Shown here: positions 564 to 58,141 of the stretch, one piece after another
How positions within the stretch are numbered: the stretch's first letter is position 1
How the letters are laid out: each line of letters opens with the position of its first letter
Assembly (NCBI RefSeq): GCF_003570885.1
Contig: NZ_QXJC01000001.1
Location: forward strand, 620,001-684,000
Direction of reading: 5' to 3'
Source: Simplicispira hankyongi
GTDB taxonomy: Bacteria > Pseudomonadota > Gammaproteobacteria > Burkholderiales > Burkholderiaceae_C
DNA length: 64,000 nt
Notes under the pieces: generated by a model
The model's input: only the letters and a program-made list of their open reading frames with translations
Told to the model about the DNA's origin: nothing
Databases searched by the model: none
Made by a program: the position numbers and the translations under genes

Positions 564-618
564 AAATTGGCCTCTAGCGCTTATCCACCAAGCGCTATTA
601 GCTATTAATCTGATAGTT
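564..618 (+). repeat. Dispersed palindromic repeat, copy A
   Basis: Reference copy of a repeat found ten times in this window. It contains the 7-bp inverted pair AGCGCTT / AAGCGCT, followed by a TAGCTATTA-type segment, and is flanked by A/T-rich ends. It is intergenic here, just downstream of the response regulator. Confidence 0.8.
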
Positions 619-677
619 AAAAACCACCTCTTTGACCGGCTTCGGAGCCACAACAGCCCAGGCAGCCGCAAACCGTT

Positions 678-1232
678 TCACCCGGCCCCATCGGCCCCGT
701 CACGCTCGCGGTCGCGTTTTGCCCGCAGCACTGCAGCGCGCCAGCGGGCCAGCGCCACCGCATAGCCAAGGGAGTAGCCCGCCAGCAGCCCATACGCGCA
801 CACCGTGGTGGCGCTGCCCATGAACTCTGCCGTACTCCTAGACACCACCGGCGCCAACCAATAGACCTCGGCGACCCGCCAGGCAATGCGCGCCAGGAAC
901 AGCGCGGACAGCGCAAACCCCAGGTGCGCATTGGGCGTGTAGAACAGCCCTTCGCCGCGCCGCGCTTCAAACTGCGTGTGGCGAACGCCCAGCAAGGAGA
1001 GCACCGCGCCCGCCAGCAGGCTGCCAATAAGCCACCCCACCCGACCCGGATGCGCCAGCGCTGCGTGCGCGACCCAGATGCTGAGCAGCGAATACACCGC
1101 TAGCGTGATCGGCGCCCGGTAGCGCGACAGGCGCTGGCGCCCAAACATCTTGCGCAGGCGCGCGTAGATGCGCCAGACAATCAGCGGGGAAAGCGTCAGC
1201 AGCGTGAGGGTGGACGAACCGGGAGCTTGCAT
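678..1232 (-). CDS. Multi-pass membrane protein of unknown function
   Basis: About 184 residues with four or five hydrophobic segments and basic loops, including an RIYARLRKMFGRQRL stretch. The layout resembles small DUF1453/CcdC-like membrane proteins but I cannot assign a family firmly. I chose the ATG at 1232, which opens directly before the first hydrophobic segment; an upstream in-frame ATG at 1301 would add a poorly conserved-looking leader. The tail is Arg/Asp-rich and cytoplasmic-looking. It stands alone between the response regulator and nnrS. Confidence 0.6.
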   Translation of the reverse strand: MQAPGSSTLTLLTLSPLIVWRIYARLRKMFGRQRLSRYRAPITLAVYSLLSIWVAHAALAHPGRVGWLIGSLLAGAVLSLLGVRHTQFEARRGEGLFYTPNAHLGFALSALFLARIAWRVAEVYWLAPVVSRSTAEFMGSATTVCAYGLLAGYSLGYAVALARWRAAVLRAKRDRERDGADGAG

Positions 1233-1459
1233 GGGAACGGGGAAGAAGAGGTGGCCGTGGTCACGAAATAATCCAGCGGCCAATATAGTGCGTACGTCCA
1301 TCGGCCTGTCAGCGCCTGTTCAAAGGTCCGTGGCTCATTGACAGAATTAAAGCAGCTCTCGCGCAGCGAGCAGGCCTGAAATGTCAGGCAATGCGATTTC
1401 TTCGATGCCCGCAATAGGCCCCCGACAGCCTCTGCCCCAGTTGCAGCCCACAACCAGCT

Positions 1460-2692
1460 CTACCCCTCACACCCCCACAATCCATCCTCCCGCGCCCGCA
1501 ACAACACCGGTGCGATAAATATGCACAGGAGGCCAAACGCCGCCATCCAGCAAAAACCGGCCAGCGCCATCCAGGCAACAGAGTATTCCCCCACCCACGC
1601 CGCCCCTGCGCGCAGCAGCGCGGCCAAGGCAATCAGGCCCGCACCCCACATGCCCCACGCGCGCTCGTCAATCGCCAGGCCGCAGTGCGCGCGCCCAGCA
1701 ATACAGATGACGGCGTAAATCGCCAGGCCAATCGTTCCCACGGTCAGCAGATGGCGCCCCGCAATGACGCCCGGGCCGCCGGCCAGCAGCGCCCAGCCCA
1801 TCAGCGCGTAGCCCAACGCCATGCACAGGTACACGGCGTAGAGCATGAGCGGCCAGCGCCGCAGCAGCGGGCGGCCCACATGCCAGTCGCCCAGCAGGTT
1901 GAACACGGCAGCGGCGCTGGCGCAGGCCAGCCAGCCGCTGGTGCGGCTGCCCTCGTGCAGAAACTCGGCCAGGGTGAACAGGGCAATGCACAGCACCGCC
2001 AGGTTGCGCCGGTGTGGGCGGGCCAGGTAGGGCTCGGCGCCGGGGTCCGCCTGGTCGATGGCGCGGTTCACGATGCGCATGGAGATACGGCTCATGGCGA
2101 CGACGATGAGCACCATCAGCAGGCCCAGAAAGGCGTGCAGCCAGCGCATGGGGTAGGCACCGCGCAGCGCATCGAAGTAAAAACCAGCGACCAGCAGTGC
2201 CAGGCCTGAGATCGCCCAGCCAAAGGCGTGGTGGCGCTGGCCGGCGGGCGTGCGAAATGCGGGCCAGAGCAGCACGATGAGCATGGCCAGCAGCGCGAAC
2301 TGCGCCGTGCCCGCCACGGCCAGCGCGGGCAGCCCGCCCACGCCCGAGAGCCAGAAGCCCGCACGGCCGAGCAGCCACAGCGCGGTCAGCCAGCGCGCAG
2401 CACGGGTCGAGGCGCCTGGGGTGTTCGTGAACTCAGGCACGGCGGTGAGCACGAAACCGACCACCGCTGCCAGGCCAAAGCCCAGTAGCAGTTCATGCGC
2501 GTGCCACACCAGCGCACCGCCAGTGACGGGCGGCGGCGGCAGGCCCAGCGCCAGCACGGCGCTCCACAGGCCAATCAGCAGCACCGCCGAGCCCATCGCG
2601 ATCAGAAAAAACGGCCGCATGGCGCACATCCACACCGGGTGGCGGGCCGAGAGCAGGCTGGGCGCTTGGCCTGGCGTGGCGGCTACCCGCAT
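1460..2692 (-). CDS. nnrS: NnrS family haem/copper membrane protein
   Basis: A 410-residue protein with about twelve hydrophobic segments. NnrS-type features include the early WHAHELLLGFG segment, with His residues thought to bind metal, and FVLTAVPEFTNTP after it. NnrS proteins are linked to tolerance of nitrosative stress and often lie in NO or denitrification loci. The start overlaps the end of the upstream ABC ATPase by 10 bases, placing it last in the receptor-ABC operon; a later ATG at 2620 (MRPFFLIAMG) is a possible alternative start. Its presence in a transport operon, rather than beside nsrR 7 kb away, is notable. Confidence 0.9.
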   Translation of the reverse strand: MRVAATPGQAPSLLSARHPVWMCAMRPFFLIAMGSAVLLIGLWSAVLALGLPPPPVTGGALVWHAHELLLGFGLAAVVGFVLTAVPEFTNTPGASTRAARWLTALWLLGRAGFWLSGVGGLPALAVAGTAQFALLAMLIVLLWPAFRTPAGQRHHAFGWAISGLALLVAGFYFDALRGAYPMRWLHAFLGLLMVLIVVAMSRISMRIVNRAIDQADPGAEPYLARPHRRNLAVLCIALFTLAEFLHEGSRTSGWLACASAAAVFNLLGDWHVGRPLLRRWPLMLYAVYLCMALGYALMGWALLAGGPGVIAGRHLLTVGTIGLAIYAVICIAGRAHCGLAIDERAWGMWGAGLIALAALLRAGAAWVGEYSVAWMALAGFCWMAAFGLLCIFIAPVLLRAREDGLWGCEG

Positions 2693-3549
2693 TGGCGGCT
2701 CCGGCTGCCGGGAAGTTGTGCGGCGCCTGGGTCTGCGGGTAGCGCTAGAGGCACGCGCGCACCCGGCAGGGGCAGCACCGCGGCTGCGGGTTCACTCGCA
2801 GCGCGCCCTTCTTCCTGCAAGGCATCGAGCCCAAAGGCCTCGCGCACCACCGGCACGCGCAGCAGTTCGGCGGTGTCATGGTAGACCGTCGCATCGCTGC
2901 GCGTCAGTGCGGCACCAGGCGGGGTATGGCGGTGCACGATGCGGCCCGGCGCTGCGGCCATGACCAGCACGGTATTGGCCAGGCGCACGGCCTCCATCAG
3001 ATCGTGGGTGATCATCAGCACTGCGGTGCCCTGCTCCGCCTGGTGGCGCAGCAGCAGGCGGTGCAACTGGGCTTTGAGGCCAATGTCGAGTGCGGCAAAG
3101 GGTTCGTCGATCAGCAGCAAGTCGGGTTGCAGCACCAGCGCACGCGCCAACGCGGCACGGCTTTGCATACCGCCCGAGAGCTGGTGCGGGTAGGCGGCCA
3201 ACGCCTCGGCATCGAGCCCCAGGGCGTTGCCCATCGCCTGGGCGCGGGTGCGCGCATCGGAGCGCGCCACACCTTGTGCACGCAGGCCCAGGGCGATGTT
3301 GTCAGCGGTGGTCTGCCAGGGCAGCAGGCGCGGCTGCTGGAACATGAGGGCGGGCTTGGCAAAGCCGCTGTGCATAGCCCCCTCTTGCAAGGTGAGCAAG
3401 CCGGCGCACAGGTGCAAGAGCGTGGTCTTGCCGCAGCCAGACGGGCCGACCAGCGCCACTACGCCGCCGGGGGGCAGCGTGAGGCTGACGCCGCCGATGA
3501 CCTCTGTCAGGGCGTAGCTGTGGCGAACGTCTTGCAATTGCAAACTCAT
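2683..3549 (-). CDS. ABC transporter ATP-binding protein, NitT/TauT (SsuB-like) type
   Basis: A 288-residue ATPase with Walker A (GPSGCGKTT), signature (LSGGMQSRAALARAL), Walker B (LLLIDEPFAALD) and the switch His in ITHD. It powers the permease encoded just upstream. Its ATG overlaps the permease stop (ATGA) and its own end overlaps nnrS, which indicates translational coupling. The C-terminal 35 residues are Ala/Pro-rich and longer than usual for this family. Confidence 0.92.
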   Translation of the reverse strand: MSLQLQDVRHSYALTEVIGGVSLTLPPGGVVALVGPSGCGKTTLLHLCAGLLTLQEGAMHSGFAKPALMFQQPRLLPWQTTADNIALGLRAQGVARSDARTRAQAMGNALGLDAEALAAYPHQLSGGMQSRAALARALVLQPDLLLIDEPFAALDIGLKAQLHRLLLRHQAEQGTAVLMITHDLMEAVRLANTVLVMAAAPGRIVHRHTPPGAALTRSDATVYHDTAELLRVPVVREAFGLDALQEEGRAASEPAAAVLPLPGARVPLALPADPGAAQLPGSRSRQCG

Positions 3550-4340
3550 ATAGGCGTCTCCCGCCAGCGCTCCACTTCGCGCTTGAGCGGCTCCAAGAAG
3601 CCGTACTCGACTGCCAGCAAGCAGCCCACCACGGCGACGATCCAGCCCATGGTGACAGCCGTATCGAGCTGCGCACGGCTGGCCGCGAGCGCTGCGCCCA
3701 CACCATCACTGCTGGCCAGCAGTTCGGCCATCACGGTGACCTTCCAGGCGCTGCCCAGCGCCGTCACCCAGGCCGGGAACAGGTAGGACAGCACATGCGG
3801 GCCATACACCTCGCGCAGCGCCATGCCGCGCGGCAGTCGGTAGGCGCGCGCCATGTCGCGCAACTGCAAATCGAGCGTGCGCGTGCCTTGCAGCGCGCTC
3901 ACAAACACCACGGGGAAGCAGGCGATGAAGACGGTGAACACGGGCGTGCCGTCGCTCATGCCAAACCACAGCATGGCGAGCACCAGCCAGGCAATAGGCG
4001 GCGTGCCCAACAGCACGGTGACCAGCGGGCGCGAAAGCACAGACGCGGTGACCGAAAGGCCGGCAGCCAGCCCCAGCAAGCTGCCCACCGAGACGGCCAG
4101 TGCCAGCCCCATCAGTGCGCGGCGCCCGGTGGCGACGATCGCGGGCCAGGCAGCGCCCTGCTGCACCAGGCCCCACAGCGCGGCGAACGCGGCGAGCGGA
4201 TCGGGCAGGATCAGCGGGTCGTAGAAGGCGGCGACGGCCTCCCAGGCGGCAAGCAACAAGAACAGGCTGGCGGCGGCACCCCAGCCGCTCCACAGATAGC
4301 CAGGCAGGCCCCGGAGCACGCGCGCCAGCAGCCGCAGCAT
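3546..4340 (-). CDS. ABC transporter permease, NitT/TauT (SsuC-like) type
   Basis: A 264-residue permease with about six transmembrane segments. The inner-membrane coupling motif typical of binding-protein-dependent permeases can be seen as the ARAYRLPRGMALREVYGP region. It starts inside the stop of the substrate-binding protein (TAATG) and ends overlapping the ATPase start. The family imports small organic or inorganic anions and cofactors; the substrate is not evident from sequence. Confidence 0.9.
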   Translation of the reverse strand: MLRLLARVLRGLPGYLWSGWGAAASLFLLLAAWEAVAAFYDPLILPDPLAAFAALWGLVQQGAAWPAIVATGRRALMGLALAVSVGSLLGLAAGLSVTASVLSRPLVTVLLGTPPIAWLVLAMLWFGMSDGTPVFTVFIACFPVVFVSALQGTRTLDLQLRDMARAYRLPRGMALREVYGPHVLSYLFPAWVTALGSAWKVTVMAELLASSDGVGAALAASRAQLDTAVTMGWIVAVVGCLLAVEYGFLEPLKREVERWRETPI

Positions 4341-5389
4341 TAGGCAGCCTTTGCTGAAGCCGGTGCACCAATCCCGTAAAACGGGTCGGTAGGCAGCTTG
4401 CCCCCCACCAGCGCGGGGTTGCGCGCCATGAGCTGCCCAAAGAAAAACTCCAGTTCGGGCCGCGCTGCAGCGGCAGGTACATCATCGAGCTGGCTGACGG
4501 CAATGGCGTCGGCCACCGCTTCCGGGGTGAGCAGGTCGATGTGCTTGGCCATCATGGCGCCGCACTCCATGGGGTTGGCACGGCACCAGTCGAGCGACTG
4601 CGCGTAGGCTTTTTCAACAGCTGCCAGCACCTCGGGCTGCTGGCGCACGGCGCCCACGGCGGCAATACCGGCCTGTGGAATATGGGGTTTTCGGTGGAAC
4701 AAGCGGCCCCACTCCTGCTGCAAATCTGCGCCCCGGTACAGATCGGGCGCGATCAGCCCGATGGGAAAGGAATGGGTTTTGCGCAGCGCCAGCGACACGG
4801 CGGGCTCGGCCAGCAGCGCATGCGAGACGCGCCGCGTGATCAGCAGCAGCATGGCCTCCATGGGGGTCGGCACGTACCGAATGCGAAAGTCCTTCTGCAA
4901 ATCCAGCCCCTGCTTGGCGGCCAGCAGTTGCAGCACGATGTCGGGCATGTCGCCATGGAAAGGCACGGCGATTTCTTCGCCACGGTAGTCGGCCAGTGTC
5001 TTGCGATGGGCATCGCGCGTCACGAGCCACAGCGCGCCCCAGGTCGAGATGTTCAGCAGCGTGACACCCGCGCCCCGGTTGAACAAATTTGCCGCCACAT
5101 TGCTGGGCATGGCCAGGATGTCGGCCTTGCCGCCCATGGCCATCATGCGCAGTTGGTCGGGGTCGCGCCAGGCGACAAAGCTCGTGCGTCCTGCGACGTT
5201 GGCCAGCGCATTGGTATCGGCCATGCGCATCAAGGGCGCCGAGACAATGGCGGGCGGTCCCGAAAGAGTGATGCCCTCGCGCAGCGGGGACGCGGGCGCG
5301 GCCTGCATCACGACTGGCAGGCTGCTTGCCACCAACCCAGCGAGCACCTGGCGACGTGAAAGACCTGAGGAATCCAAAGATTTCAGCAC
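4340..5389 (-). CDS. ABC transporter substrate-binding protein (NMT1/SsuA-like)
   Basis: A 349-residue periplasmic binding protein. The N-terminus carries a twin-arginine-like start (LSRRQVLAGLVASSLP) ending at a plausible cleavage site in MQAAPAS. The core has the NMT1-type pattern GKADILAMPSNVAANLFNRG. It begins only 10 bases after the TonB-dependent receptor stop. Gene order receptor, binding protein, permease, ATPase suggests one ligand is passed across both membranes. The ligand is unknown; this fold binds nitrate, sulfonates, pyrimidines and various cofactors. Confidence 0.88.
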   Translation of the reverse strand: MLKSLDSSGLSRRQVLAGLVASSLPVVMQAAPASPLREGITLSGPPAIVSAPLMRMADTNALANVAGRTSFVAWRDPDQLRMMAMGGKADILAMPSNVAANLFNRGAGVTLLNISTWGALWLVTRDAHRKTLADYRGEEIAVPFHGDMPDIVLQLLAAKQGLDLQKDFRIRYVPTPMEAMLLLITRRVSHALLAEPAVSLALRKTHSFPIGLIAPDLYRGADLQQEWGRLFHRKPHIPQAGIAAVGAVRQQPEVLAAVEKAYAQSLDWCRANPMECGAMMAKHIDLLTPEAVADAIAVSQLDDVPAAAARPELEFFFGQLMARNPALVGGKLPTDPFYGIGAPASAKAA

Positions 5390-15880: not shown

Positions 15881-17197
15881 ATGATTGCGATGTCCGCCCT
15901 GCAAGAACTGCTGCATGCTCTGCCCGGCGCGGTGCTGCTGGCGCGCAACGACGTCATCGTGTATGCCAATGCCGCCAGCGCAGCGCTGCTCGAAGTGGCA
16001 TCGCCTGAACAGCTCCACGGCCGCACGACCAATGAATTCGTGCACCCGCTGGACAAGCAGCGCTCGAGCGAGCGCATCTACCGCATCAGCAGCCAGGCGG
16101 TGGAGCCCGCTACAGCGCCCAACAAACCCTCGGAATTCCGACTCCGCACCAGCCTTGGCAACCTGCGCATGGTGCTGATCTCCAGCGTGGCCCTGGTGGT
16201 CGAAGGTGCGCCCGCCGTGCTGATGTGCGGCCTGGACATGACGCACCAGAGTGAGATCCAGCAGCAGCTGCGCGAGAGCGAGCAGAACTTCCGGCGACTG
16301 TTCGAGAGCATGCAGGATGTGTACTACCGCACCAACGCCCAGGGCGTGGTACAGCACGTAGGCCCCGGCGTGCGCCGGGTACTCGGCTACGAACCGCACG
16401 AGATTGAAGGCCGCACCGCGGAGTCGTATTACCCGCAAAGCAGCGACCGGGATGCCTTCAAGGCCGCCATCATGGCGCATGGGGAAGTCTCGGATTTTCC
16501 AGGCCAGATGGTGTGCAAGGACGGCAGCATCATCGACATTTCCATCAGCAGCCATGCCTTGTTCGACCACAACGGCCAGTTCGCCGGCATCGAGGGCATT
16601 TACCGCGACGTGACGCAGCGCAAAAACCTCGAACGCGAGCTGCAGCGCCTGGCCACCACCGACATGCTTACCGGCATGGCCAACCGCCGCGCATTCCTCG
16701 ACGCTGCCGAGCAGGCCTGGGCCGAGGCGAGGGGAAACGGCCAGGCCATGTGCCTGCTGATGCTCGACCTGGACCACTTCAAGAACATCAACGATCGCAA
16801 TGGCCACCTTGAGGGCGACCGGGTCCTCGTGGCCTTTGCGCAGGCGGTGCGCGCGCAACTGCGTGCCAGCGACACCGTGGGGCGCCTGGGTGGCGAAGAG
16901 TTCTGCGTACTGCTGCGAACGACCGACGCCGACAGCGGCAGCGAGGTCGCCACACGCATTCTGGAGGGCGTACGCACCATGCCGCTCACAACCGCCACCG
17001 GCGAACGCTTGAGCGTGACGGTCAGTGTGGGCTTGGCCAACCTGCGTTCTGTAGACCGCAGCCTGCACGAATTGCTCGACCGCGCCGATCAAGCGCTGTA
17101 CAACGCCAAGCGCGGGGGACGTGACCGGGTAGCGTTCAATGCGGGCGGCGGGCCTTCACACACGGACTCCCTCGGACCAGAGCATCAGGACACTTAG
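15881..17197 (+). CDS. PAS-PAS-GGDEF diguanylate cyclase
   Basis: About 438 residues. An N-terminal PAS domain (ALPGAVLLARNDVIVYANAA) is followed by a second PAS/PAC (FRRLFESMQDVYYRTNAQG; YRDVTQRKNLERELQRLA) and a GGDEF domain with an intact active site (GRLGGEEFCVLL). An RxxD I-site (RASD) precedes the GGEEF by five residues, so product inhibition is expected. No membrane segment is seen, so the sensor is probably cytoplasmic. The exact start (15881 or 15890) is uncertain. Confidence 0.88.
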   Translation: MIAMSALQELLHALPGAVLLARNDVIVYANAASAALLEVASPEQLHGRTTNEFVHPLDKQRSSERIYRISSQAVEPATAPNKPSEFRLRTSLGNLRMVLISSVALVVEGAPAVLMCGLDMTHQSEIQQQLRESEQNFRRLFESMQDVYYRTNAQGVVQHVGPGVRRVLGYEPHEIEGRTAESYYPQSSDRDAFKAAIMAHGEVSDFPGQMVCKDGSIIDISISSHALFDHNGQFAGIEGIYRDVTQRKNLERELQRLATTDMLTGMANRRAFLDAAEQAWAEARGNGQAMCLLMLDLDHFKNINDRNGHLEGDRVLVAFAQAVRAQLRASDTVGRLGGEEFCVLLRTTDADSGSEVATRILEGVRTMPLTTATGERLSVTVSVGLANLRSVDRSLHELLDRADQALYNAKRGGRDRVAFNAGGGPSHTDSLGPEHQDT

Positions 17198-17201
17198 ATA
17201 G

Positions 17202-17256
17202 AAAATGGCCTCTAGCGCTTACCCAGAAAGCGCCATAAGCTATCTTATAAATAGCA
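17202..17256 (+). repeat. Dispersed palindromic repeat, copy B
   Basis: Same element and orientation as copy A: GGCCTCTAGCGCTTA at the left, then AAGCGCCATAAGCTATC. It lies between the diguanylate cyclase and slyX. Confidence 0.8.
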
Positions 17257-17284
17257 ACAAGCCCTGTGCAAATACCGCCCGCTG

Positions 17285-20707: not shown

Positions 20708-20716
20708 GGTCGGCGC

Positions 20717-20760
20717 ATAGCTATGTATTTTGTAGCTATAAGTTCTTTATTTGTAAGCGG
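20717..20760 (-). repeat. Dispersed palindromic repeat, degenerate copy C
   Basis: In reverse orientation this reads CGCTTACAAATAAAG, then a TATAGCTAC segment. The left third of the element is poorly conserved. It lies just after nth. The surrounding region to 20870 holds no gene. Confidence 0.5.
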
Positions 20761-20870
20761 TACGGCCCATAAACTTCCAAATATTGCGAAACGCTCCACC
20801 CCCAATAGCGTGCACGCCGCTGGCTATACTGAAATTCACCACCCGCCTGCGCACCCCACACTTTCTACGC

Positions 20871-22553: not shown

Positions 22554-22751
22554 GCGGGGCACGGTGCCTTGGCGTTGCTGGGCGGGAAATTTTGGATATC
22601 AATTAGCCAATACCGCCCGTCCATGTTGCGTTATGAGCTCTTACTCTAATAGCATTCACGTCGACCAAAAAGGCGCTCGACTTGATAAACCACGCTCTCC
22701 TGGCTGAACAGCCTCGCACCTTTTCTTCAGGCTCTTCTTCATCGCACACAG

Positions 22752-29830: not shown

Positions 29831-30906
29831 CAGGAACCCCTACAGAAAACTACCAAAACAATAGCTGACAGCGCAATCAGGACAATCGCTAGAGCCACTT
29901 TTGACACCAAATTCTGCGCACGCGCAGCATCGTGCGCCGTGGGCACGCGGCCCGCCGCATGGAGCTGGTACACGCCTGGCTTGGTCAGCCGCACGCCCAG
30001 CGCCAGCGCCATCGCCGCCATGGGCCAGCCGCTGTTGGGCGACGGGGTCTTGCGGGCTTCCTGCGCCAACCTGCGCAGCGGCACGCCCCCGGCCATCAGC
30101 GCCAGCAGCAGAGCCGTCAGCCGCGCCGGCAGCCACGAGAGCACATCGTCGGCCCGTGCCGCCCATTTGCCGGCCCATTGCCAGTAGCGGCCGCCGCGCA
30201 TGCCGGGGTAGCCCCACATGGCGTCGGCGGTATTGGAAAATCGGTACAGCACCGCGCCGGGCAGGCCCGCCAGCGCGAACCAGAACAGGGGCGCCACCAC
30301 CGAATCGTTCAGGTTTTCGGCCAACGATTCGATGGCGCTCTGGCGCACTTCATCGGCACTGAGCCGGTCCACCTCGCGGCTGACCACCCAGGCCAGGCGC
30401 GCACGGCCCGCCTGCAGCGATTCACCCAGAGCAGTTTCCACGGCGCGCACTTCGCCTTGCAGCGCGGCCAGCGCCAGCATCGGCTTGAGCAGCAGGCCCA
30501 GCGCCGTGGCCGTCAGCACGGTGACCAAGGCCGTTTGCACCGCTTGCGCACCCGCCATGCCAACGCCTTCAATATCCAGCCCCGGGGGATGGGCAGGCGC
30601 CGGGACACTGAGCCACAGCACCACGCCTTGCAAAATGGCGGCTGCTATCGTTACAAGAGCTGCCAAGGCACACCAGACAAGCGCTGCAAGCCAAAAATGC
30701 TTGAAGCATTGCTGGGTCTCGGCAGCCGGTGCGATGCGCGCTCCGCAGGCCTCCAGGGCGCGGCCCATCCACACCACCGGGTGCCAGCGCGCAGGCGGCT
30801 CGCCCCAGAGGCGGTCCACCGCCAGCGCCACGAGCACGGCCAGCGCCAGGCAGGCGCCACCAAAACCAGGATGTGCCGCGAGGGGATGGAGCCAGTACCA
30901 GGGCAT
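29830..30906 (-). CDS. cbiB: Adenosylcobinamide-phosphate synthase (CbiB/CobD) with two repeat-encoded segments
   Basis: A 358-residue membrane enzyme that joins aminopropanol phosphate to adenosylcobyric acid. Family motifs include VDRLWGEPPARWHPVVWMG, ESLAENLNDSVVAPLFWFA and SNTADAMWGYPG. Two copies of the dispersed repeat lie inside the gene in the same reading frame: one encodes part of the second membrane segment (WLAALVWCALAALVTIAA), the other the last membrane helix (VALAIVLIALSAIVLVVF). Without these inserts the protein would be nearer the usual length of about 310-320 residues. Confidence 0.93.
   Translation of the reverse strand: MPWYWLHPLAAHPGFGGACLALAVLVALAVDRLWGEPPARWHPVVWMGRALEACGARIAPAAETQQCFKHFWLAALVWCALAALVTIAAAILQGVVLWLSVPAPAHPPGLDIEGVGMAGAQAVQTALVTVLTATALGLLLKPMLALAALQGEVRAVETALGESLQAGRARLAWVVSREVDRLSADEVRQSAIESLAENLNDSVVAPLFWFALAGLPGAVLYRFSNTADAMWGYPGMRGGRYWQWAGKWAARADDVLSWLPARLTALLLALMAGGVPLRRLAQEARKTPSPNSGWPMAAMALALGVRLTKPGVYQLHAAGRVPTAHDAARAQNLVSKVALAIVLIALSAIVLVVFCRGS
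29844..29903 (-). repeat. Dispersed repeat copy D, inside cbiB 3' end
   Basis: On the minus strand it reads GTGGCTCTAGCGATTGTC, then GCGCTGTCAGCTATTG, aligning along its length with copy A. It encodes the C-terminal hydrophobic helix of CbiB. Confidence 0.75.
30631..30699 (-). repeat. Dispersed repeat copy E, inside cbiB 5' part
   Basis: On the minus strand: TTTTTGGCTTGCAGCGCTTG, then GTGCCTTGGCAGCTCTTG and an A/T-rich end. Reading frame is the same as in copy D. More diverged than A, B or H. Confidence 0.65.
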
Positions 30907-31500: not shown

Positions 31501-32301
31501 TCAGACGACAGCTTCAGGGGCGTGCAGGCGGGGCAAGGCCAGCCACTGGCCCTGCACGCGGTGGATGGTGATGCGCTGGTCGAACACGGCCTCCAGCGCA
31601 CGGTGCGTGGCCGGGTCGCGCGCGGCGCCGTGGTGCTGCAGGCGGCCGTCCTGCAGCACGGCCACGTCATCGGTCTGCAGCGCCATCGACAGCTCATGCA
31701 GCACGCTGACCACCGTGCAGCCGCGTGCCACCAGGCTGCGCACCAGCAGCAGCCAATCGGCCTGGTGCGGCGGATCAAGGTTGGCCAGCGGCTCATCCAT
31801 CAGCAGCACCGGAGCGTTCACGGCCAGGGCGCGCGCCAGCAGCACGCGCTGGCGCTCGCCGCCCGAGAGCTGGCCCAGCGGGCGCTCGCGCCAGGCCCAG
31901 GCCTGCGTCTGGCGCAACGCCGCTTCGGCGGCGGCATGGTCGGCCGCGCTGGGCGGCTGCAGCCAGCCCTGGTGCGGCAGACGGCCCAGCAGCGCCACAT
32001 CAAGCACCGTCAGGTCATCGGCCGCCGCTTCGTTCTGGCCCAGCCAGGCCATCTGCCGGGCGCGTTCGCGGGGCTGCCAGTCGTGCAGAACGCGGCCAAA
32101 CAGTTGCACTTGCCCCGTCTGCGCCGGCAGCAGCCCAGCCAGCACCTTGAGCAAGGTCGATTTGCCCGCGCCGTTGGGGCCGACGATGCTGGTCCAGCGG
32201 CCCGCCGCCAGCGGCAGCGTGATGCCGTGCAATATGGAGCGTTTTCCTATTCCAGCGCTTACCTGATCTGCGCCAATAGCTATTTTTTCAGTAGCAATCA
32301 C
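31501..32301 (-). CDS. btuD: Cobalamin ABC transporter ATP-binding protein
   Basis: A 266-residue FecE/BtuD-type ATPase: Walker [20 protein letters not shown], signature [15 protein letters not shown], Walker [12 protein letters not shown], and the switch His in LHELSMAL. The start is a GTG at 32301 that overlaps the permease stop (GTGA), which implies coupled translation. The first 20 codons lie within repeat copy F, in antisense orientation to the repeat's reading frame elsewhere. Confidence 0.92.
32241..32300 (+). repeat. Dispersed repeat copy F, at btuD 5' end
   Basis: Plus strand: CCAGCGCTTACCTGATCTGC, then GCCAATAGCTATTTTTTCAG. Read on the opposite strand it encodes residues 1-20 of BtuD, up to the first beta-strand. 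Confidence 0.65.
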
Positions 32302-34324: not shown

Positions 34325-34908
34325 GGCGGGTCTTTCAAGGTGAGCGGCAGCCCGGCCGCCATCAGCGTGACGCGCTCGCAGGCCTGCGCCGCCTGCTGGT
34401 TCAAGAGGCCCAGCGCATCGACAAAGGCGCGCACTTCGCGTCCCATGGGAATGACCCCCAGGCCGATCTCGTTGCCCACCAGAACAACGGGCCCAGGGGT
34501 TTTCGCCAATACTTCAAAAAAGAGAGCTGCTTGCGCACGCCAGCCGTTCGTTAGAGCCTCTTTTTTATCAAAATTTTTATCGTGCCGAAATAGCCAGTGG
34601 GTCAGCCACAGCGTCAGGCAATCCACAACGATGAGCGTATCCGGCGCGCCGTGCTGCGCCAGGGCACCCGCCACATCGCGCGGCTCCTCCAGCGTCTGCA
34701 TGCGCGGCACGCGCGCGGCGCGGTCGCTCTGGTGGCGGGCAATGCGCTGGCGCATTTCCTCGTCGTGCGCCTCTGCGGTAGCAATCAACAGCGCGCGGTG
34801 CGCGGGGCTGGCCGCCAGCCATTGGGCCGCCAGCGCCTCGGCGCGGCGCGATTTGCCGCTTTTCTGGCCACCCAAAATCAGCTCGCTGCGGACCACGGAG
34901 AGGCTCAT
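34321..34908 (-). CDS. cobU: Adenosylcobinamide kinase/guanylyltransferase with repeat insert
   Basis: A 195-residue CobU/CobP. The P-loop is LILGGQKSGKSRRAEALA; the guanylylated His is expected in the IARHQ region; VVDCLTLWLTHWL and VLVGNEIGLGVIPMGR are family signatures. Between the last two, about 25 residues (including KKEALTNGWRAQAALFFEVL) are encoded by repeat copy G. The insertion falls in a loop region, so activity may survive. ATGA overlaps join it to cobB and btuF. Confidence 0.92.
   Translation of the reverse strand: MSLSVVRSELILGGQKSGKSRRAEALAAQWLAASPAHRALLIATAEAHDEEMRQRIARHQSDRAARVPRMQTLEEPRDVAGALAQHGAPDTLIVVDCLTLWLTHWLFRHDKNFDKKEALTNGWRAQAALFFEVLAKTPGPVVLVGNEIGLGVIPMGREVRAFVDALGLLNQQAAQACERVTLMAAGLPLTLKDPP
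34511..34578 (-). repeat. Dispersed repeat copy G, inside cobU
   Basis: Minus strand: AAAGAGGCTCTAACG, then GCGTGCGCAAGCAGCTCTC. Same reading frame as in cbiB and rlmD (Ala-Leu after the first GCT CTA; Ala near GCA GCT). The centre is diverged. Confidence 0.65.
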
Positions 34909-50950: not shown

Positions 50951-51010
50951 AAATTGTTCTTATTTTGATAGCTGCTTGCACAATACCCATAAGCGTTAGA
51001 GGCCATTTTG
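50951..51010 (-). repeat. Dispersed repeat copy H, upstream of FMN oxidase
   Basis: Minus strand: CAAAATGGCCTCTAACGCTT, then GTGCAAGCAGCTATCA. It closely matches copies A and B. On the plus strand its end contains AGAGG followed 6 bases later by TTG, the start codon of the next gene. Confidence 0.8.
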
Positions 51011-52156
51011 ACTCTAAATTCTTCTCGCACCCCGCAACGGGAGGCGCTGGCCCCCGGCACGCTGACCTTGGCCGACCACGAACGCCATGCACGGGCGCGG
51101 CTGGACGCCAATGCCTGGGCCTATTTCAGCGGTGGCGCGGGGGACGAGCACACCCTCCACGCCAACCGCCACGCCTGGGACAGCATCGCATTGCTGCCGC
51201 GCGTGCTGCGCCCGCTGGCCGGTGGACACACCCGCTGCACGCTGCTCGGCCGTGAGCTTGCCCACCCGATCCTGCTCGCACCCGTGGCGTACCAGTGCCT
51301 GGCGCACCCGGACGGCGAAATCGCCACGGCCTGGGCGGCGGCGGCCCTTGGCGCCGGCATGGTGCTGAGCATGCAATCGAGCACCACGCTGGAAGCGGTG
51401 GCCGCGGCCATGGTGGGCGAGCGGTCCGCCGGCCCGCTCTGGCTGCAGTTGTATCTGCAGCACGACCGCGCTCTGGTGCGTGAGCTGATTGCCCGCGCGG
51501 AGGCGGCCGGCTGCGAAGCCCTGGTACTCACCGTGGACGCGCCGACCAGCGGCGTGCGCGACCGCGAGCGTCGCGCCGGTTTCGCGCTGCCGCCCGGCAT
51601 CCGCGCCGCCAACGTGAGCGCCATGGCGGCACCGCCACCAATGCGCCTGGGCGCTGGCCAGAGTGCCCTGTTCGACGGCCTGCTCCAGCACGCCCCCACC
51701 TGGGACGACGTCGCCTGGCTGCAGGCGCAAACCCGCTTGCCGGTGCTGCTCAAAGGCGTGTTGCATCCAGAAGACGCGCGGCTTGCCGCTGCCCAGGGTG
51801 TCGCCGGCCTGATCGTCTCCAACCACGGTGGCCGCACACTGGACACCGCGCTCAGCACTGCCAGCGCCCTGCCCCGCATTGCCGACGCCGTGGGCGGCGC
51901 ACTGCCGCTGCTGGTCGATGGCGGCGTGCGACGGGGCACCGATGTGTTCAAGGCCCTGGCGCTGGGCGCCACGGCGGTGCTGGTCGGCCGCCCAGTGGTC
52001 TGGGGCCTGGCGCACGCCGGCGCAGCGGGCGTGGCCCACGTGCTGCGCGTGCTGCGCGACGAGTTGGAAGTGGCCATGGCGCTCACCGGTTGCGCCACGC
52101 TCGGCGGCATCAGCCGCGCGGCGCTGGCACCGGCACCAACGGCGGCAGTCGTTTAA
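51008..52156 (+). CDS. FMN-dependent alpha-hydroxy-acid oxidase/dehydrogenase
   Basis: A 382-residue enzyme of the lactate/glycolate oxidase family. Flavin and active-site motifs: [20 protein letters not shown], then [18 protein letters not shown], the active-site His in [12 protein letters not shown], and [21 protein letters not shown]. The start is a TTG at 51008, within the end of repeat copy H, which also supplies the AGAGG ribosome-binding site. It lies between PiuC and bfd in an iron cluster; its role there is unknown. Confidence 0.88.
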
Positions 52157-52482: not shown

Positions 52483-52554
52483 ATGCTGGCATTCGCGCTC
52501 TGCCTGTCGCTGGCCGCCGTAGGCTTGGCACTTTCCTGGATTTTTAGGCGCTGA
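52483..52554 (+). CDS. Possible 23-residue single-pass membrane peptide
   Basis: [20 protein letters not shown] then FRR: one hydrophobic helix and a positive end. It begins 9 bases after the bfd stop and ends just before repeat copy I. There is a weak upstream GA-rich stretch. Coding is suggested only by the clean membrane-helix pattern and position. Confidence 0.35.
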
Positions 52555-52562
52555 ATTGGTAG

Positions 52563-52616
52563 CAAAATTGGCTGCCAGCGTATGTACCGTGTGCGCTGGC
52601 AGCTATTCTTTTTGAT
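52563..52616 (+). repeat. Dispersed repeat copy I, before tonB
   Basis: AAAATTGGCTGCCAGCG, then GTGCGCTGGCAGCTATTC, with long self-pairing arms (GCTGCCAGCG with CGCTGGCAGC). It ends at the tonB ATG. Confidence 0.75.
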
Positions 52617-53316
52617 GTCTTCTGATCATTTTTCACCCGTATCGCACAGCAAACGCAATGCCGCAGTCTTCGCCGGCATTGCCTTGGCGCATGGCGCTGC
52701 CTTGTGGGCGCTGCAAGCTGGGTTGAGCCACCAGCGGCCGATAGAAGTCATCGTTCCCGCGGTGCTGCTGAGCGAGTTCGTCGCACCGCCGGCACCTCCC
52801 GCCCCACCGCCGCCCAAGCCCGCAGCGCCACCGCCCGTTCCGGTGAGCCAGCACACCAAACCTACCCCCAGACCGGCACCGGTTCACACACCACTGCCCA
52901 GCCCGACCCCCATCGCCAACGCGGCACCGGAGGCTCCCGTGGTGAGCGCGCCGGTGCCGACGCCCGCACCCACCAATGCGCCGTCGGCACCGCCTGCGCC
53001 GCCGGCACCTCCCGTACCACCGGCGCCACCCCGCATTGATCTGCCGTCGAGCAACGCGGCCTACCTGAACAATCCGGCTCCCGCCTACCCATCGATCAGC
53101 AAGCGCATGGGCGAACAGGGCAAGGTGGTGCTGCGCGTGCTCATCAGCGCCGATGGGCGGCCGGAACAGGTGGAAATCAAGCAATCGAGCGGTTTTGACC
53201 GGCTGGACCGGCAGGCCCACGACACCGTTCTGCGCTGGCGCTTCGTACCGGGCAAGCGCAATGGCGTCGCCGAGACCATGTGGTACCTCGTGCCGATCAA
53301 CTTCGTTCTCGAATAA
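52615..53316 (+). CDS. tonB: Energy transducer TonB
   Basis: About 233 residues: an N-terminal anchor (NAAVFAGIALAHGAALWALQ), a long Pro-rich periplasmic spacer (PPAPPAPPPPKPAAPPPVP and similar), and a C-terminal TonB domain (YPSISKRMGEQGKVVLRVLI, then LDRQAHDTVLRWRFVPGKRNG). I chose the ATG at 52615, because the upstream 11 codons are encoded by repeat copy I. It is followed by exbB and exbD and should energise the receptors in this window. Confidence 0.9.
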   Translation: MSSDHFSPVSHSKRNAAVFAGIALAHGAALWALQAGLSHQRPIEVIVPAVLLSEFVAPPAPPAPPPPKPAAPPPVPVSQHTKPTPRPAPVHTPLPSPTPIANAAPEAPVVSAPVPTPAPTNAPSAPPAPPAPPVPPAPPRIDLPSSNAAYLNNPAPAYPSISKRMGEQGKVVLRVLISADGRPEQVEIKQSSGFDRLDRQAHDTVLRWRFVPGKRNGVAETMWYLVPINFVLE

Positions 53317-54058: not shown

Positions 54059-54469
54059 ATGGCCTTCGGCACCCAGGACGACACCGACGAAGTGATGAAC
54101 GAAATCAACATGACGCCGCTGGTCGACGTGATGCTGGTGCTGCTTATCATCTTCATCATCACGGTGCCTGTCATGAAGCACTCGGTCAGCGTCGATTTGC
54201 CGAAAGCGAGCGTGCAGGCCGAACAGGTCAAACCTGAAACCCTGCGCCTGTCGGTGCAGGCGGACGGCAGCTATGCGCTCGACGGCACAGCCCTCAGCGA
54301 CGAGGCACTGGAGCAGCGCCTGCAGGCGGCCGCCGTGCAGACGCCGCAGCCCGAACTGCACCTCAGCGGCGACAAGAATGTGCGCTACGAACGTGTGGCG
54401 CTGGCCCTGGCCGCGGCCCAGCGCGCCGGTGTGCGCAAGATCGGGTTTGTCACCGAGCCCAAGCCCTAG
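54059..54469 (+). CDS. exbD: Biopolymer transport protein ExbD
   Basis: A 136-residue ExbD/TolR protein with one membrane helix carrying the proton-path Asp (EINMTPLVDVMLVLLIIFII). The periplasmic domain ends RAGVRKIGFVTEP. It begins 2 bases after the exbB stop. Confidence 0.94.
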   Translation: MAFGTQDDTDEVMNEINMTPLVDVMLVLLIIFIITVPVMKHSVSVDLPKASVQAEQVKPETLRLSVQADGSYALDGTALSDEALEQRLQAAAVQTPQPELHLSGDKNVRYERVALALAAAQRAGVRKIGFVTEPKP

Positions 54470-54507
54470 GACACGCGCTCCTGTAGACAAAAAAATCGCA
54501 CAAGGCA

Positions 54508-54541
54508 TTGACCAAATGAATGCGAATCAATATCATTAGCG
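54508..54541 (+). promoter_or_regulatory. hemP promoter with Fur box
   Basis: TTGACC (54508-54513), a 17-base spacer and TATCAT (54531-54536) form a good sigma70 promoter. AATGCGAATCAATATCATT (54519-54537) overlaps it as a Fur-type site. It shares its core with the site before the receptor at 7.5 kb. Confidence 0.7.
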
Positions 54542-54542
54542 A

Positions 54543-54776
54543 ATGCCAACATTGCAAACCCTTGCCGCCGAATCACCGGACTCCTGCGCCACCGCTACCC
54601 ACAAGAACGATAGCGCCATGCGCCCGACGCCCGTGTGCAGCAACACCGCGCAGCCGTGCTTCACCTGGCAGAGCGCCGAACTGCTGCAAGGCAACAAACG
54701 CGTGCACATTGCGCACAACGGCGGTGTCTACCAATTGCAGGCCACACGGCAAGGCAAGCTCATCCTGACCAAATAG
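54543..54776 (+). CDS. hemP: Hemin uptake protein HemP
   Basis: A small protein ending in the HemP signature (LLQGNKRVHIAHNGGVYQL, then ATRQGKLILTK). The predicted transcription start is at about 54543, so the ATG there would be leaderless; an ATG at 54618 would give a 52-residue protein that keeps the conserved part. Region 54777-54912 contains no gene, only a hairpin near 54885. Confidence 0.88.
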   Translation: MPTLQTLAAESPDSCATATHKNDSAMRPTPVCSNTAQPCFTWQSAELLQGNKRVHIAHNGGVYQLQATRQGKLILTK

Positions 54777-54912
54777 TTCCTGATCTCGTTTCATCGTGGG
54801 GCGACTCCAGTGCCAGGGGGCACATGTCGTTGTTTGCCAGCCAGCGGGCCCTGCCCTTGTAGCCAGGCTTTTTTCCCCCCACGTGGCAGCGTTGCGCTGC
54901 CAGTTGGCCGCT

Positions 54913-55317
54913 TCAGCCCAGCGCGGCAATGCCTGCGCGGGCAATCTGCACGTCTTCGTTCGACTTCACGCCGCTCACGCCCACCGCGCCCAGACAGTTG
55001 CCGCCCTGCAGGATGGGCACGCCGCCTTCAAGCAGCGCCTCGGCGCCAGGAGCGCTCAGGAAGGACACGCGGCCGCCATTGACCATGTCTTCGTAGGTTT
55101 TGCTCTCGCGCCGCCCCAATGCCGCCGTGCGGGCCTTGCCGGGCGCAATGTGTGCCGAAAGCGGTGCCGCACCGTCCAGGCGCTGCAACCACAGCAGGTG
55201 GCCGCCCGCATCCACGATGGCAATCGTGACCGCCCAGCCGTTGGCCAGCGCCTCGGCTTCCGCGCCTGCCGCAATTTTGCGAATGTCGACGAGTTCAAGT
55301 TCGGTGGTGGTTTTCAT
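54913..55317 (-). CDS. GlcG/HbpS-family haem-binding protein (DUF336)
   Basis: A 134-residue protein with the GlcG/HbpS pattern: AEALANGWAVTIAIVDAGGHL, then KARTAALGRRES and GGVPILQGGNCLGAVGVSG near the end. Members bind haem or corrinoid. No signal peptide is apparent. It is convergent with hemP, consistent with a haem role. The ATG at 55317 fits the family length. Confidence 0.8.
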   Translation of the reverse strand: MKTTTELELVDIRKIAAGAEAEALANGWAVTIAIVDAGGHLLWLQRLDGAAPLSAHIAPGKARTAALGRRESKTYEDMVNGGRVSFLSAPGAEALLEGGVPILQGGNCLGAVGVSGVKSNEDVQIARAGIAALG

Positions 55318-55546
55318 GCAGACGTTCCTAAAAAGTAGCCGGGCCGAAAGAGCGAGGCCGAGGCGTTGGAGCATAGCGGGGCCTGCATGCGCAGGGAACC
55401 AAACGCCGGGTAAAAGAATCATGACCAAAACAAGCCCATTGCATCGATTGATGGCAAAGGCAATGCCCACGCCTTGCAATGGTGGATGGGACCACCATCT
55501 AGAATGCCACTTACCCGCACCGTGCGGGCCACTCTGGAGAGACACC

Positions 55547-56248
55547 ATGAACGATCGGGTTACCCCCTTCCCCTCCTCTGCGGGCTACGGCACTGGCGTA
55601 TCGCAGGAGCAGCGCCACAGGGTGCTGCGCAATACCTACTGGCTGCTGGCCTTGAGCCTGCTGCCCACCGTTCTGGGCGCCTGGGTTGGCGTGGCCACGG
55701 GCATCACGCAGTCGCTGCGCGGTGGCCTGGGGCTGATGGTTTTCCTCGGCGGCGCCTTTGGCTTCATGTACGCCATCGAGAAAACCAAAAATTCTGCAAC
55801 GGGCGTACCGGTGCTGCTGGGCTTCACCTTCTTCATGGGCCTGATGCTCTCGCGCCTGATTGGCATGGTGCTGGGTTTTTCCAATGGCGGCCAACTCATC
55901 ATGACGGCATTTGCCGGCACGGCCGGCGTGTTTTTCGTCATGGCCAGCTTGGCCACGGTCATCAAGCGCGATATCTCGGGCCTGGGCAAGTGGCTGTTTG
56001 TCGGTGCCATGGCGATCGTCGTGGGCGCTGCCATCAACGTGTTTATCGGCTCGACAGCGGCCATGATGGCCATTTCGGTGGCGGCCATCGGCGTTTTCAG
56101 TGTCTACATGCTGTACGACCTCAAGCGCATCCTGGATGGTGGCGAGACCAACTACATCAGCGCTACGCTGGCCCTGTACCTGGACCTGTTCAACGTGTTC
56201 CAGAGCCTGCTCATGCTGCTGGGCATCATGGGCGGCGATAGCGACTGA
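55547..56248 (+). CDS. Bax inhibitor-1/YccA family membrane protein
   Basis: A 233-residue protein with seven membrane segments: LLALSLLPTVLGAWVGVATG, then GFTFFMGLMLSRLIGMVLG, and the C-terminal LALYLDLFNVFQSLLMLLG typical of BI-1/YccA. E. coli YccA modulates FtsH; the role here is inferred. The ATG at 55547 follows a GGAGAG site. Region 55318-55546 shows no other gene. Confidence 0.9.
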   Translation: MNDRVTPFPSSAGYGTGVSQEQRHRVLRNTYWLLALSLLPTVLGAWVGVATGITQSLRGGLGLMVFLGGAFGFMYAIEKTKNSATGVPVLLGFTFFMGLMLSRLIGMVLGFSNGGQLIMTAFAGTAGVFFVMASLATVIKRDISGLGKWLFVGAMAIVVGAAINVFIGSTAAMMAISVAAIGVFSVYMLYDLKRILDGGETNYISATLALYLDLFNVFQSLLMLLGIMGGDSD

Positions 56249-56271
56249 TCTCACTGCGTTGACACCGCAGG

Positions 56272-56301
56272 CAAAGGCTCCGTATCGGGGCCTTTGTTTT
56301 T
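56272..56301 (+). terminator. Terminator of the YccA-like gene
   Basis: CAAAGGC ... GCCTTTG stem with an 11-base loop, followed by TTTTT. Confidence 0.85.
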
Positions 56302-56334
56302 CCGAATCCTCAAGCCAAGGCTTCTGGCGCCGAT

Positions 56335-56697
56335 ATGACCTGTATGCGCTCAACCTTTCTGCCATCGCTGCGTCTTCCGATCGCACTTGCGTTGCTCAGC
56401 CTGCTGGCGGCCTGCGACATCCCTGGCCTGGGGCCTGACCCGCGCGTTGCACAGCGCGAGGAAGAGGCCAAAGCCATTGGCGGTGCTTGCCGCTTCGCCG
56501 TGCGCGGCATTGAAGACTGCTACGCGAACAATCCGAAATCGTCCAAGGCAGCCATTTTTGCCGGTTGGAAAGACATGGATGGCTACATGCGCGACAACAA
56601 GATCGAAGGCATTCCTGCTTCCGGTTCTGCCGCAGCGACCCCACCCGAAGACACCCCGGCACCCGTCGCGGCGGCAAGCGCCCCGGCCAAGAAATAA
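56335..56697 (+). CDS. Putative lipoprotein, unknown function
   Basis: A 120-residue protein with a lipoprotein signal (PIALALLSLLAAC; lipobox LLAAC). The mature part has a Cys pair (GACRFAVRGIEDCY) that may form a disulfide, a short helical core (AAIFAGWKDMDGYMRDNK), and an Ala/Pro-rich tail. The start may be 56335 or 56344. No family is recognised. Confidence 0.75.
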   Translation: MTCMRSTFLPSLRLPIALALLSLLAACDIPGLGPDPRVAQREEEAKAIGGACRFAVRGIEDCYANNPKSSKAAIFAGWKDMDGYMRDNKIEGIPASGSAAATPPEDTPAPVAAASAPAKK

Positions 56698-56710
56698 CGC
56701 GGGGCTGGCG

Positions 56711-58141
56711 TCAGACTCGCTCGAACACCGCCATGCTCTCCACATGCGCTGTATGCGGGAACATGTTCACAGCCCCCGCCGCCGTGCAGCGGTAACCCGC
56801 CAGATGCACCAGCAGGCCGGCGTCGCGCGCCAAAGTGGCCGGGTTGCAGCTCACGTAGACAATGCGGCGCGGCGGCGTCCAGCCCTCGGCCCCGCCGGGC
56901 AGTGGCAGAGCGTCTTGCACACCCCGGCGCGCCTGCTCGATGTCGGCCAGCGCTTTGGCGAGGGCAAAAGCGCCTTCACGCGGCGGGTCTACCAGCCACT
57001 TGTCGGCAACCCCGTCGGCCACCAGCATCGCAGGCGTCATCTCGAACAGGTTTCTAGCTACGAATTTCGTAGCTGCTAGCGCACGACCCATATGCGGTAG
57101 AGCCCTATTTGACTCATAATTTTGCAGCGCACGGGCCACCAGCACCTCGCTGCCTTCAATACCCAAGACCTCGCCCGCCTGGGTGGCCAGCGGCAGCGTG
57201 AAATTGCCCAGGCCGCAAAACCAGTCAATCACGCGCTCGTTGGCTTGCACATCCAGCAGGCGCAGCGCCCGCACCACCAGCACGCGGTTGATGTGCGGGT
57301 TCACCTGCGTGAAGTCGGTGGGTTTGAAGGGCATGGTGATGCCGAACTCGGGCAGCGCATAGGCCAGCTGAGGCCCGCCCTCATCGAGCAGGCGCACCGT
57401 GTCGGGGCCCTTCGATTGCAGCCACCATTGCACACCGTGCGCGGCGGCAAAGTCGCGCAGGCGCTGCAGGTCGGCACCAGACAGCGGCTCCAGGTGGCGC
57501 AGCACCATCGCCGTGACCGCATCGCCGCAGGCCAGTTCAATCTGCGGAAGCGTGTCGCGCGCGTCCATGTCGCCGATCAGCGCGCGCAGCGGCATCAGCA
57601 TGGCGCTGACGTGCGGCGGCAATACCGGGCAGACGCGCATGTCGGCGACATAGCGGCTTTTGCGCTCGTGAAACCCAATCAGCACCTCGCCCTTTTTCAC
57701 CACGTAGCGCACGGACAAACGCGCGCGGTAGCGGTAGCCCCAGGCGGGGCCTTCTATCGGGCGCAGCACAATCTCGGGCTTGATCTTGCCCAGGTGCCAC
57801 AGGTTGTCTTCCAGCACCCGCTGCTTGACCGCCACTTGGGCTGCCGGGTGCAGGTGCTGCATCTTGCAGCCGCCGCAGGCGCCCGCGTGCAAGCCGAAAT
57901 GCGGACAGCCAGGGCGCACACGCTGCGAAGATTCGCGGTGAATCTCGGTCAGCTCGGCCTGTTCCCAGTTGTTCTTGCTGCGGGTGCGTCGGGCACTGAC
58001 CCGCTCGAACGGCAGTGCGCCATCGATGAACACCACCTTGCCATCGGGCCGCCGGGCAACGCCCTGCGCGTCGAGGTTCAACGACTCGACTTCCAGCCAC
58101 TCGGGCGCCTGCACGGGCGCCAATTCTTTCGTATCGCTCAT
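56711..58141 (-). CDS. rlmD: 23S rRNA (uracil-1939-C5)-methyltransferase with repeat insert
   Basis: A 476-residue methyltransferase with an N-terminal TRAM-like domain and Fe-S Cys ([19 protein letters not shown], then CPVLPP). SAM-binding and catalytic motifs are [25 protein letters not shown] and the nucleophile Cys in [14 protein letters not shown]. Between [15 protein letters not shown] and ARNLFEMTP, about 20 residues (including [14 protein letters not shown]) come from repeat copy J. The insertion lies in the Rossmann domain between two core strands. Confidence 0.93.
57051..57124 (-). repeat. Dispersed repeat copy J, inside rlmD
   Basis: Minus strand: GGGCTCTACCGCATATGGG, then GTGCGCTAGCAGCTACG, followed by a second small palindrome (TAGCTACGAA with TTCGTAGCTA). 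Reading frame matches that of copies D, E and G. Confidence 0.75.

Follow-up and report, generated by a model that had tools for sequence, protein, structure and literature searches.

The window analyzed here, a 64,000-nucleotide stretch of Simplicispira hankyongi DNA (bases 620001-684000 of contig C1, in a 3.71-Mb genome of 19 contigs), includes a cobalamin gene cluster, the genes cbiB, cobU, and rlmD, and copies of a palindromic repeat that lie both between and within genes. The repeat is a 71-bp dyad in which AT-rich arms flank TAGCGCTTAnnnnnTAAGCGCTA, laid out as GC, GCGC, GCGC, and GC blocks separated by AT tracts. Twenty-two copies (those at window positions 551 and 17189 and 20 lying in other parts of the genome) aligned gap-free over 71 columns, giving the consensus nAAATTTTAAGTnAAATTGGCCTCTAGCGCTTATCCAGnAAGCGCTAnnAGCTATTAATTTAATAGTnAnn. 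Outside these columns the DNA immediately becomes GC-rich again: the copies average 40% GC, and the surrounding DNA 65%. A single copy used as a query returned 41 matches across the genome, and a covariance model trained on the 22 aligned copies (R1, whose E values depend on a short calibration) returned at least 150. A first-pass annotation of the window had described a dispersed palindromic repeat, and the covariance-model search shows that it is dispersed genome-wide. To place copies relative to genes, we used an 864-kb sample composed of the window and 40 stretches of 20 kb from the same genome. The best 150 of 166 R1 matches (the weaker ones being excluded) reduced to 125 separate copies after removal of overlaps, one of them cut by a tile edge, for a density of about 1 copy per 7 kb. 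Eight bases were invariant in all 17 ungapped coding copies (A26, G29, C30, C43, G44, G51, C52, and T53). Longer forms with extra bases between the half-sites were observed at L123:9643-9747 (105 nt) and G000 C13:156444-156555 (112 nt), and genomes G063 and G074 carry a longer-loop form at the position matching window 17189.

The window was scanned with R1 with filters off (Table 1). Six of the ten copies named in the first-pass annotation match R1 at an E value of ≤0.001 (551, 17189, 29845, 50952, 52552, and 57053), two of these being training copies. Of the four weak ones, three are rescued by orthologous sites in relatives (41 bits for the N-terminal cbiB site, 37 bits for cobU, and 33 bits for 32228), whereas the copy at 20716 is still weak. 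In an Rfam scan of the window, the element had no match above the gathering score; the cobalamin riboswitch alone was found.

Table 1. Repeat copies and the riboswitch in the window (scores are from R1 unless another source is given)
Feature	Position	Strand	Location	Score	Remarks
Full copy	551..621	+	Between convergent genes	84.6 bits	In R1 training set; without synteny in fetched relatives
Full copy	17189..17259	+	Between convergent genes	69.2 bits	In R1 training set
Weak copy	20716..20785	-	Between genes	18 bits, E 0.31	G063 site 19 bits, E 1
Copy absent from the earlier list	22587..22657	+	Between genes	25.2 bits, E 0.004	G074 orthologous copy 42.9 bits
Coding copy	29845..29914	-	cbiB 3' end (C-terminal membrane helix, judged by residues)	33.1 bits	G076 44 bits
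Degraded coding copy	30640..30710	-	cbiB 5' part (hydrophobic helix)	19.6 bits, E 0.12	Congeners ≤41 bits
Weak copy	32228..32299	+	Junction of two genes	14.4 bits, E 2.8	G071 33 bits
Degraded coding copy	34507..34577	-	cobU	17.6 bits, E 0.4	G071 37 bits, G070 32 bits
Copy	50952..51022	-	Between co-directional genes	45 bits	Found in 4 congeners
Copy	52552..52622	+	Overlapping gene start	31.2 bits	
Coding copy	57053..57123	-	rlmD	39.6 bits	140 orthologs compared
Cobalamin riboswitch RF00174	38390-38629	-	Adjoins cobalamin gene cluster	Rfam 69.5 bits	

The repeat is indeed translated inside genes, with 25 coding copies in the 864-kb sample. However, the proposal that these are mobile elements inserted into genes, in the manner of Rickettsia palindromic elements, was not supported by comparison with orthologs. 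Four proteins were named with NCBIfam: CbiB (over the TIGR00380 cutoff), RlmD, and DapF exceeded their cutoffs, and CobU scored 156.8 bits against a cutoff of 161. In all four genes, the outcome that the first-pass annotation had named as refuting was observed: orthologs free of the repeat code for the corresponding segments in the corresponding places, with lengths that are equal or nearly so, and no repeat-length insert was found between repeat-bearing and repeat-free orthologs at comparable coding sites (rlmD, cbiB twice, cobU, and dapF). Both cbiB sites fall in hydrophobic helices, in alignment columns that are gap-free within the genus and against outgroup L083 (51% identity). With R1, the corresponding cbiB DNA of congeners reaches as much as 44 bits, and the site at 29845 reaches a z of 8 against synonymous shuffles. 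We considered that these equal-length sites might be chance matches, an idea overturned by congeners scoring 36 to 44 bits there. For cobU, the repeat-free genomes G061 and G064 have colinear GC-rich sequence that is 6 nt shorter over the compared stretch; the same two genomes have colinear GC-rich nonrepeat sequence at the 32228 gene junction, where congeners have the element. In dapF, a full sense copy was present in only one of four genomes, G063, with a position weight matrix (PWM) score of 58. The same site scores -35, -39, and -47 in G000, G076, and G070, respectively, with 0 gaps in the alignment and W-P-L and V-A retained. Gene conversion from another copy is possible but not needed to explain the dapF site, where divergence from G000 is 35/77 inside versus 46/147 and 46/150 in the flanks. 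Weaker contrasts between bearing and free genomes at C13b 94516 and 102451 (C13b denotes C13:600001-800000) are also without a repeat-length insert. As read from these alignments, copies at comparable coding sites differ by base substitution in place.

The consequences for the protein were followed in rlmD, for which 140 orthologs (134 distinct rows) were compared and a z of >4 against synonymous shuffles was taken as element-like; counts of changes exclude 10 rows with a z of 2 to 4, and 20 repeat-free rows are without the extension described below. Genera of this family that are free of the repeat have the segment NYxxNQAxxxxGxALAATxFVARN with GC-rich codons and with LAPT. The compared segment is 34 amino acids long in 64 of 65 element-like orthologs, and the LAPT position in these 65 is never Pro (Ala in 61, Thr in 3, and Asn in 1). 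Among 45 repeat-free orthologs with the extension, in contrast, 27 have 34 amino acids (the rest have 31 to 36), and 37 have Pro at LAPT; the difference in length was significant (Fisher P = 1e-7). Repeat state changes at least 17 times on the rlmD tree. Across eight supported independent pairs, the Pro/Ala difference follows the element in ∼5.7 and opposes it in 0. In rlmD, then, the repeat accompanies the absence of one Pro and a fixed length. Some outgroups are 7 amino acids shorter, and repeat-free genera also carry the extension; the extension itself is therefore older than, or separate from, the repeat.

The DNA motif, beyond the peptide alone, is conserved. Real coding sequences in the 864 kb gave 31 PWM hits of ≥15 bits (counted on both strands, such that a palindromic copy may count twice), compared with a mean of 0.75 and a maximum of 2 in eight synonymous shuffles. 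The codons of rlmD and cbiB fit the motif with z mostly 4 to 10 in repeat-bearing genomes and ∼0 in most repeat-free ones. The cbiB 3' ends L182, L189, L176, and L180 (genomes G054, G020, G027, and G047, respectively) retain the right half of the repeat, AGCT..TT.ATAGC, perhaps as relics or as a variant form.

Within the genus, R1 at an E value of ≤0.001 detected no matches in G061 or G066 and two in G064, versus 73 to at least 150 in the other 20 members. G066 is 84% complete, and 4 of the 20 repeat-rich congeners are 61 to 67% complete. The three genomes with few or no matches group as a single clade in the rlmD phylogeny, with 99% support in the Shimodaira-Hasegawa-like approximate likelihood ratio test (SH-aLRT). 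That is, members of one genus have either at least 73 copies or almost none. In a second genus, g78, G175 has at least 24 matches and G215 has none. In a family set of 60 genomes, with a single genome for each genus and that of S. hankyongi included, 17 match at an E value of ≤1e-5, six with 52 to at least 83 matches and 11 with 1 to 25. This family count used strict filters: "repeat-free" means no match at ≤1e-5, and a few such genomes give one or two at ≤1e-3. Across the order (200 genomes), the S. hankyongi genome and G175, of the same family, were the only ones among the matches listed. Named loci carrying copies include those of Acidovorax, Giesbergeria, Simplicispira, and Rhodoferax. Searches with one consensus at an E value of ≤1e-3 matched 4 of 72,556 plasmid records and none of 50,697 phage records, and one stretch among the IMG/VR viral contigs matches the exact core pattern. 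Intergenic copies occupy the same positions in congeners whose aligned DNA is ∼10 to 30% different, with the core conserved and the loop varying (for example, C13b 34295, 71092, 107932, and 121130). The copy at C13b 44280 is absent from G070, and that at window position 50952 is absent from repeat-free G061, in which the spacer is 77 bp shorter.

Genes for the placement analysis were called by a home-made script (∼90% coding) instead of an annotation tool. Of the 125 copies, 98 were intergenic, 25 lay within genes, and 2 were partial at gene edges; none of the best 52 lies entirely within a gene. A copy was present in 24 of the 49 spacers of ≥70 nt between convergent genes, in 57 of the 233 between co-directional genes, and in 3 of the 88 between divergent genes, with 4 of the 98 intergenic copies lying outside the listed spacer regions. 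Between co-directional genes, the copy was closer to the upstream stop in 45 pairs and closer to the downstream start in 19, and no orientation bias was detected (32 same, 33 opposite). Copy spacing was slightly more even than random, with 3.6% of matched nulls equally even. Copies holding a start codon or an N-terminal signal-peptide-like segment were observed at C13b 82036-82106 (G000 C13:682036-682106), C1b 172613-172682, and C1a 137744-137813.

Coding copies were oriented in the sense direction in 9 cases and antisense in 16. The four coding copies of the first-pass annotation (two in cbiB, one in cobU, and one in rlmD) do share one sense frame, xGG CCT CTA GCG, as it had stated, and eight of the nine sense copies in the sample use this frame when one-base indels are allowed; the remaining one uses GCC TCT AGC. 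The suggestion of a single frame bias fits the sense copies but not the antisense majority, which is spread over several frames: 11 read GCT nnT AGC GCT (ASAxxISA-type), 4 read CTn nTA GCG (LLAxxxQALE-type), and 1, cut by a tile edge, reads the third frame, these classes having been sorted by eye from the peptides. The other two sense frames had been described as blocked by stops. This is so in the consensus for GGC CTC TAG, whereas GCC TCT AGC GCT TAT CCA is open; nor is the shared sense frame always open, since copies whose loop is CCAGTAA close it with TAA. The consensus puts a fixed stop into two of the six frames, in which just 1 of the 25 coding copies is read, and therefore stop avoidance accounts for much of the frame pattern. 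Frame use is a matter of stop avoidance plus each protein's tolerance, with no one privileged frame.

In-place evolution of a motif within genes, combined with presence or absence by lineage (within the genus, not strictly family-wide), is what uptake sequences also display. Because coding sequence changes in place and copies are all or almost none at the genus level, we sought an explanation in something that acts on DNA sequence at many places and can be lost at once. On balance, and with modest confidence, we favor the explanation that the repeat is a dyad-symmetric DNA site of ∼71 bp read by a lineage-specific cell factor, and we infer that a trans-acting reader of the repeat exists. While such a reader is present, chance partial matches (e.g., TGGCC... 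or GTGGC) would improve stepwise, driven by selection for binding or by molecular drive, for example, biased uptake or recombination of motif-bearing DNA. If the reader or its taste were lost, the whole copy set would decay. More tentatively, the repeat may belong to a new class of DNA signals present across the genome: recognized by a lineage-specific factor, the 71-bp dyad would rewrite coding sequence in place in many unrelated genes (replacing, e.g., Pro and freezing local length) and vanish genome-wide once the factor is lost.

Several observations weigh against a lineage-specific reader. No reader protein was found. After the 125 copies were masked, sub-motifs of the core were not overrepresented outside full copies, except mildly TAGCGCTTG (20 versus 10.2); short uptake sequences differ in this respect, being overrepresented as single copies. 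Family counts are not all-or-none, given the 11 of 60 genomes with 1 to 25 matches. Some repeat-rich genomes are missing single sites (cbiB2 in G015, G003, and the congeners G082, G081, and G062; cbiB1 in G002), and some genomes with zero to two matches retain repeat-like sequence (cbiB2 in G054, G020, G027, and G047, with z of 6 to 9; rlmD in G054, with z of 6). Gain and loss are not distinguishable at most changes. Insertion and deletion are likewise indistinguishable at 50952 and C13b 44280, and intergenic copies could be insertions. The evenness of spacing is only slight, and the distribution of ComEC, considered below, is uninformative on uptake.

A factor that reads the repeat could take two forms. 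In the strict sense, the repeat might be a DNA uptake or conspecific-recognition signal, an idea we find possible if doubtful: it agrees with the gain or loss in place inside genes, the lack of copies throughout one clade, the preference for gene ends, the scarcity on plasmids and phages, and the mildly even spacing, but isolated half motifs were not found, and ComEC is encoded in 38 of 39 genomes, repeat-bearing or not. A short uptake-type motif was also tried and rejected, as TAGCGCTTA occurs 75 times versus 31 expected from its sub-words and the core k-mers leave the enriched list once the 125 copies are masked. Alternatively, the repeat might be the binding site of a nucleoid or chromosome-organizing protein, selected at each site. 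The dyad of GC, GCGC, GCGC, and GC blocks with AT tracts, the eight invariant bases of the ungapped coding copies, the slightly even spacing, and the absence from a whole clade are consistent with such a site, which would, however, need strong selection at hundreds of places, some at the cost of a Pro; we also know of no chromosome-organizing site this long and this numerous. We hold uptake-type drive to be slightly likelier than an organizing site, itself a doubtful prospect, and the present data do not separate them. Published uptake sequences too have been located in genes and, paired in inverted orientation, at terminators (PMC3630211, PMC2346458), but they are 10- to 12-mers present in thousands, in contrast to a 71-bp unit at ∼1 per 7 kb (PMC3630211).

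Two explanations that do without such a reader appear improbable. A miniature mobile palindrome, of the miniature inverted-repeat transposable element or Rickettsia palindromic element type, would insert in and between genes and leave coding copies as old in-frame inserts. The sharply bounded 71-bp unit, its scatter over both strands at about 1 copy per 7 kb, and the 77 bp missing from G061 at intergenic position 50952 are as expected of such an element. We nonetheless consider it unlikely, given that none of the comparable coding sites shows a repeat-length insert, that positions are common across the genus, and that syntenic stretches revealed no fresh insertion with an empty site (of the relatives' 54 copies, 25 could not be judged for want of one alignment spanning both flanks; of the 29 judged, 7 were without a copy called in G000). 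The number of PF01797 genes is also independent of copy number. Repetitive extragenic palindromic (REP) sequences are many short palindromes at gene ends, with copies on either side of the RAYT gene, and genomes have them or not in step with RAYT. The element resembles them in its many palindromes at gene ends and in the one PF01797 gene of the S. hankyongi genome, but the nearest copies lie more than 4 kb from that gene (none within 4.4 kb), and 28 of 33 genomes have PF01797 whether they are rich in the repeat or free of it; a REP/RAYT system was rejected on these grounds. Contig C1 of G015 has 20 PF01797 (IS200-like transposase) matches, several in two pieces, where the other 32 genomes have 0 to 3. 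Somewhat less likely still, the element could be a bidirectional terminator of transcription, or a hairpin at RNA 3' ends, that convergent evolution has multiplied where genes end. The excess of copies in convergent over divergent spacers and near upstream stops over next starts would suit a terminator, as would slight covariation in the relatives' set (A4), whose score was reached by 15 of 500 shuffles; the larger set (A2) showed no covariation, its score being reached by 468 of 500 shuffles, and in each set some copies are also represented by their match on the opposite strand. Furthermore, the copies lack orientation bias, some lie inside genes, where termination should harm (dapF, in one species only), and one adjoins a separate terminator-like hairpin, as judged by eye. 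An autoregulated neighbor gene was also considered and rejected, in that the genes between copies <1.3 kb apart appear unrelated (by eye, with names not searched).

Comparison with known systems draws on the available portions of the cited papers. The core motif has already been published, together with its placement at gene ends and without a function in the text available: in 2017, the core GCTTAT(N)5AAGCG was reported from Acidovorax ebreus TPSY in 114 copies, 107 of them intergenic (44 convergent, 4 divergent, and 59 co-oriented) (PMC5217627). The same pattern matches 63 times in the 864 kb, 62 of these inside element copies. The A. ebreus motif shares the core letters and a similar placement with our repeat, but the listing, in its available part, gives a 16-bp core only, without the full element, its relatives, its evolution in coding sequence, or a function (PMC5217627). 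The spacing of the Polaromonas motif ATAGCT(N)22CAAAAG had no match in the 864 kb. BRE, from Bordetella and other betaproteobacteria, are likewise repeated, occur in Comamonadaceae, and have some coding copies, but they are ∼90 bp, 69% GC in Bordetella, and often tandem, as against 40% GC here, and are set apart by description only (PMC3110155). Translated palindromes are also in print, as inserts (PMC10969869, PMC2759123). The Rickettsia palindromic elements are, like ours, palindromic repeats translated through in genes, but as in-frame integrations of ∼150 bp, whereas the sites compared here have no insert (PMC10969869). ERIC and RU-1 to RU-3 of enterobacteria are likewise intergenic units, and genes that contain them translate them in more than one frame; in the text available, they are mobile units fused to open reading frames, with no in-place conversion of conserved segments (PMC2759123). 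In the open-access papers searched, we did not find in-place coding conversion by a 71-bp palindrome or its absence from a whole clade.

Translated repeats are usually taken to be mobile elements that have inserted; in the present case, the repeat and ordinary codons swap in place and the protein follows, so that one can test whether a long DNA signal overrides what the protein prefers. Contrasting the gene content of near-zero-copy lineages (G061, G064, and G066; G215) with that of their rich congeners could reveal the reader. Parallels include the uptake sequences of Neisseriaceae and Pasteurellaceae, which also lie in genes and at gene ends and differ wholesale between lineages; the element is far longer, rarer, and palindromic as one unit (PMC3630211, PMC2346458). 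Should the repeat prove to serve uptake or recombination, signals of this type would be known beyond these two families, and in a form quite unlike theirs.

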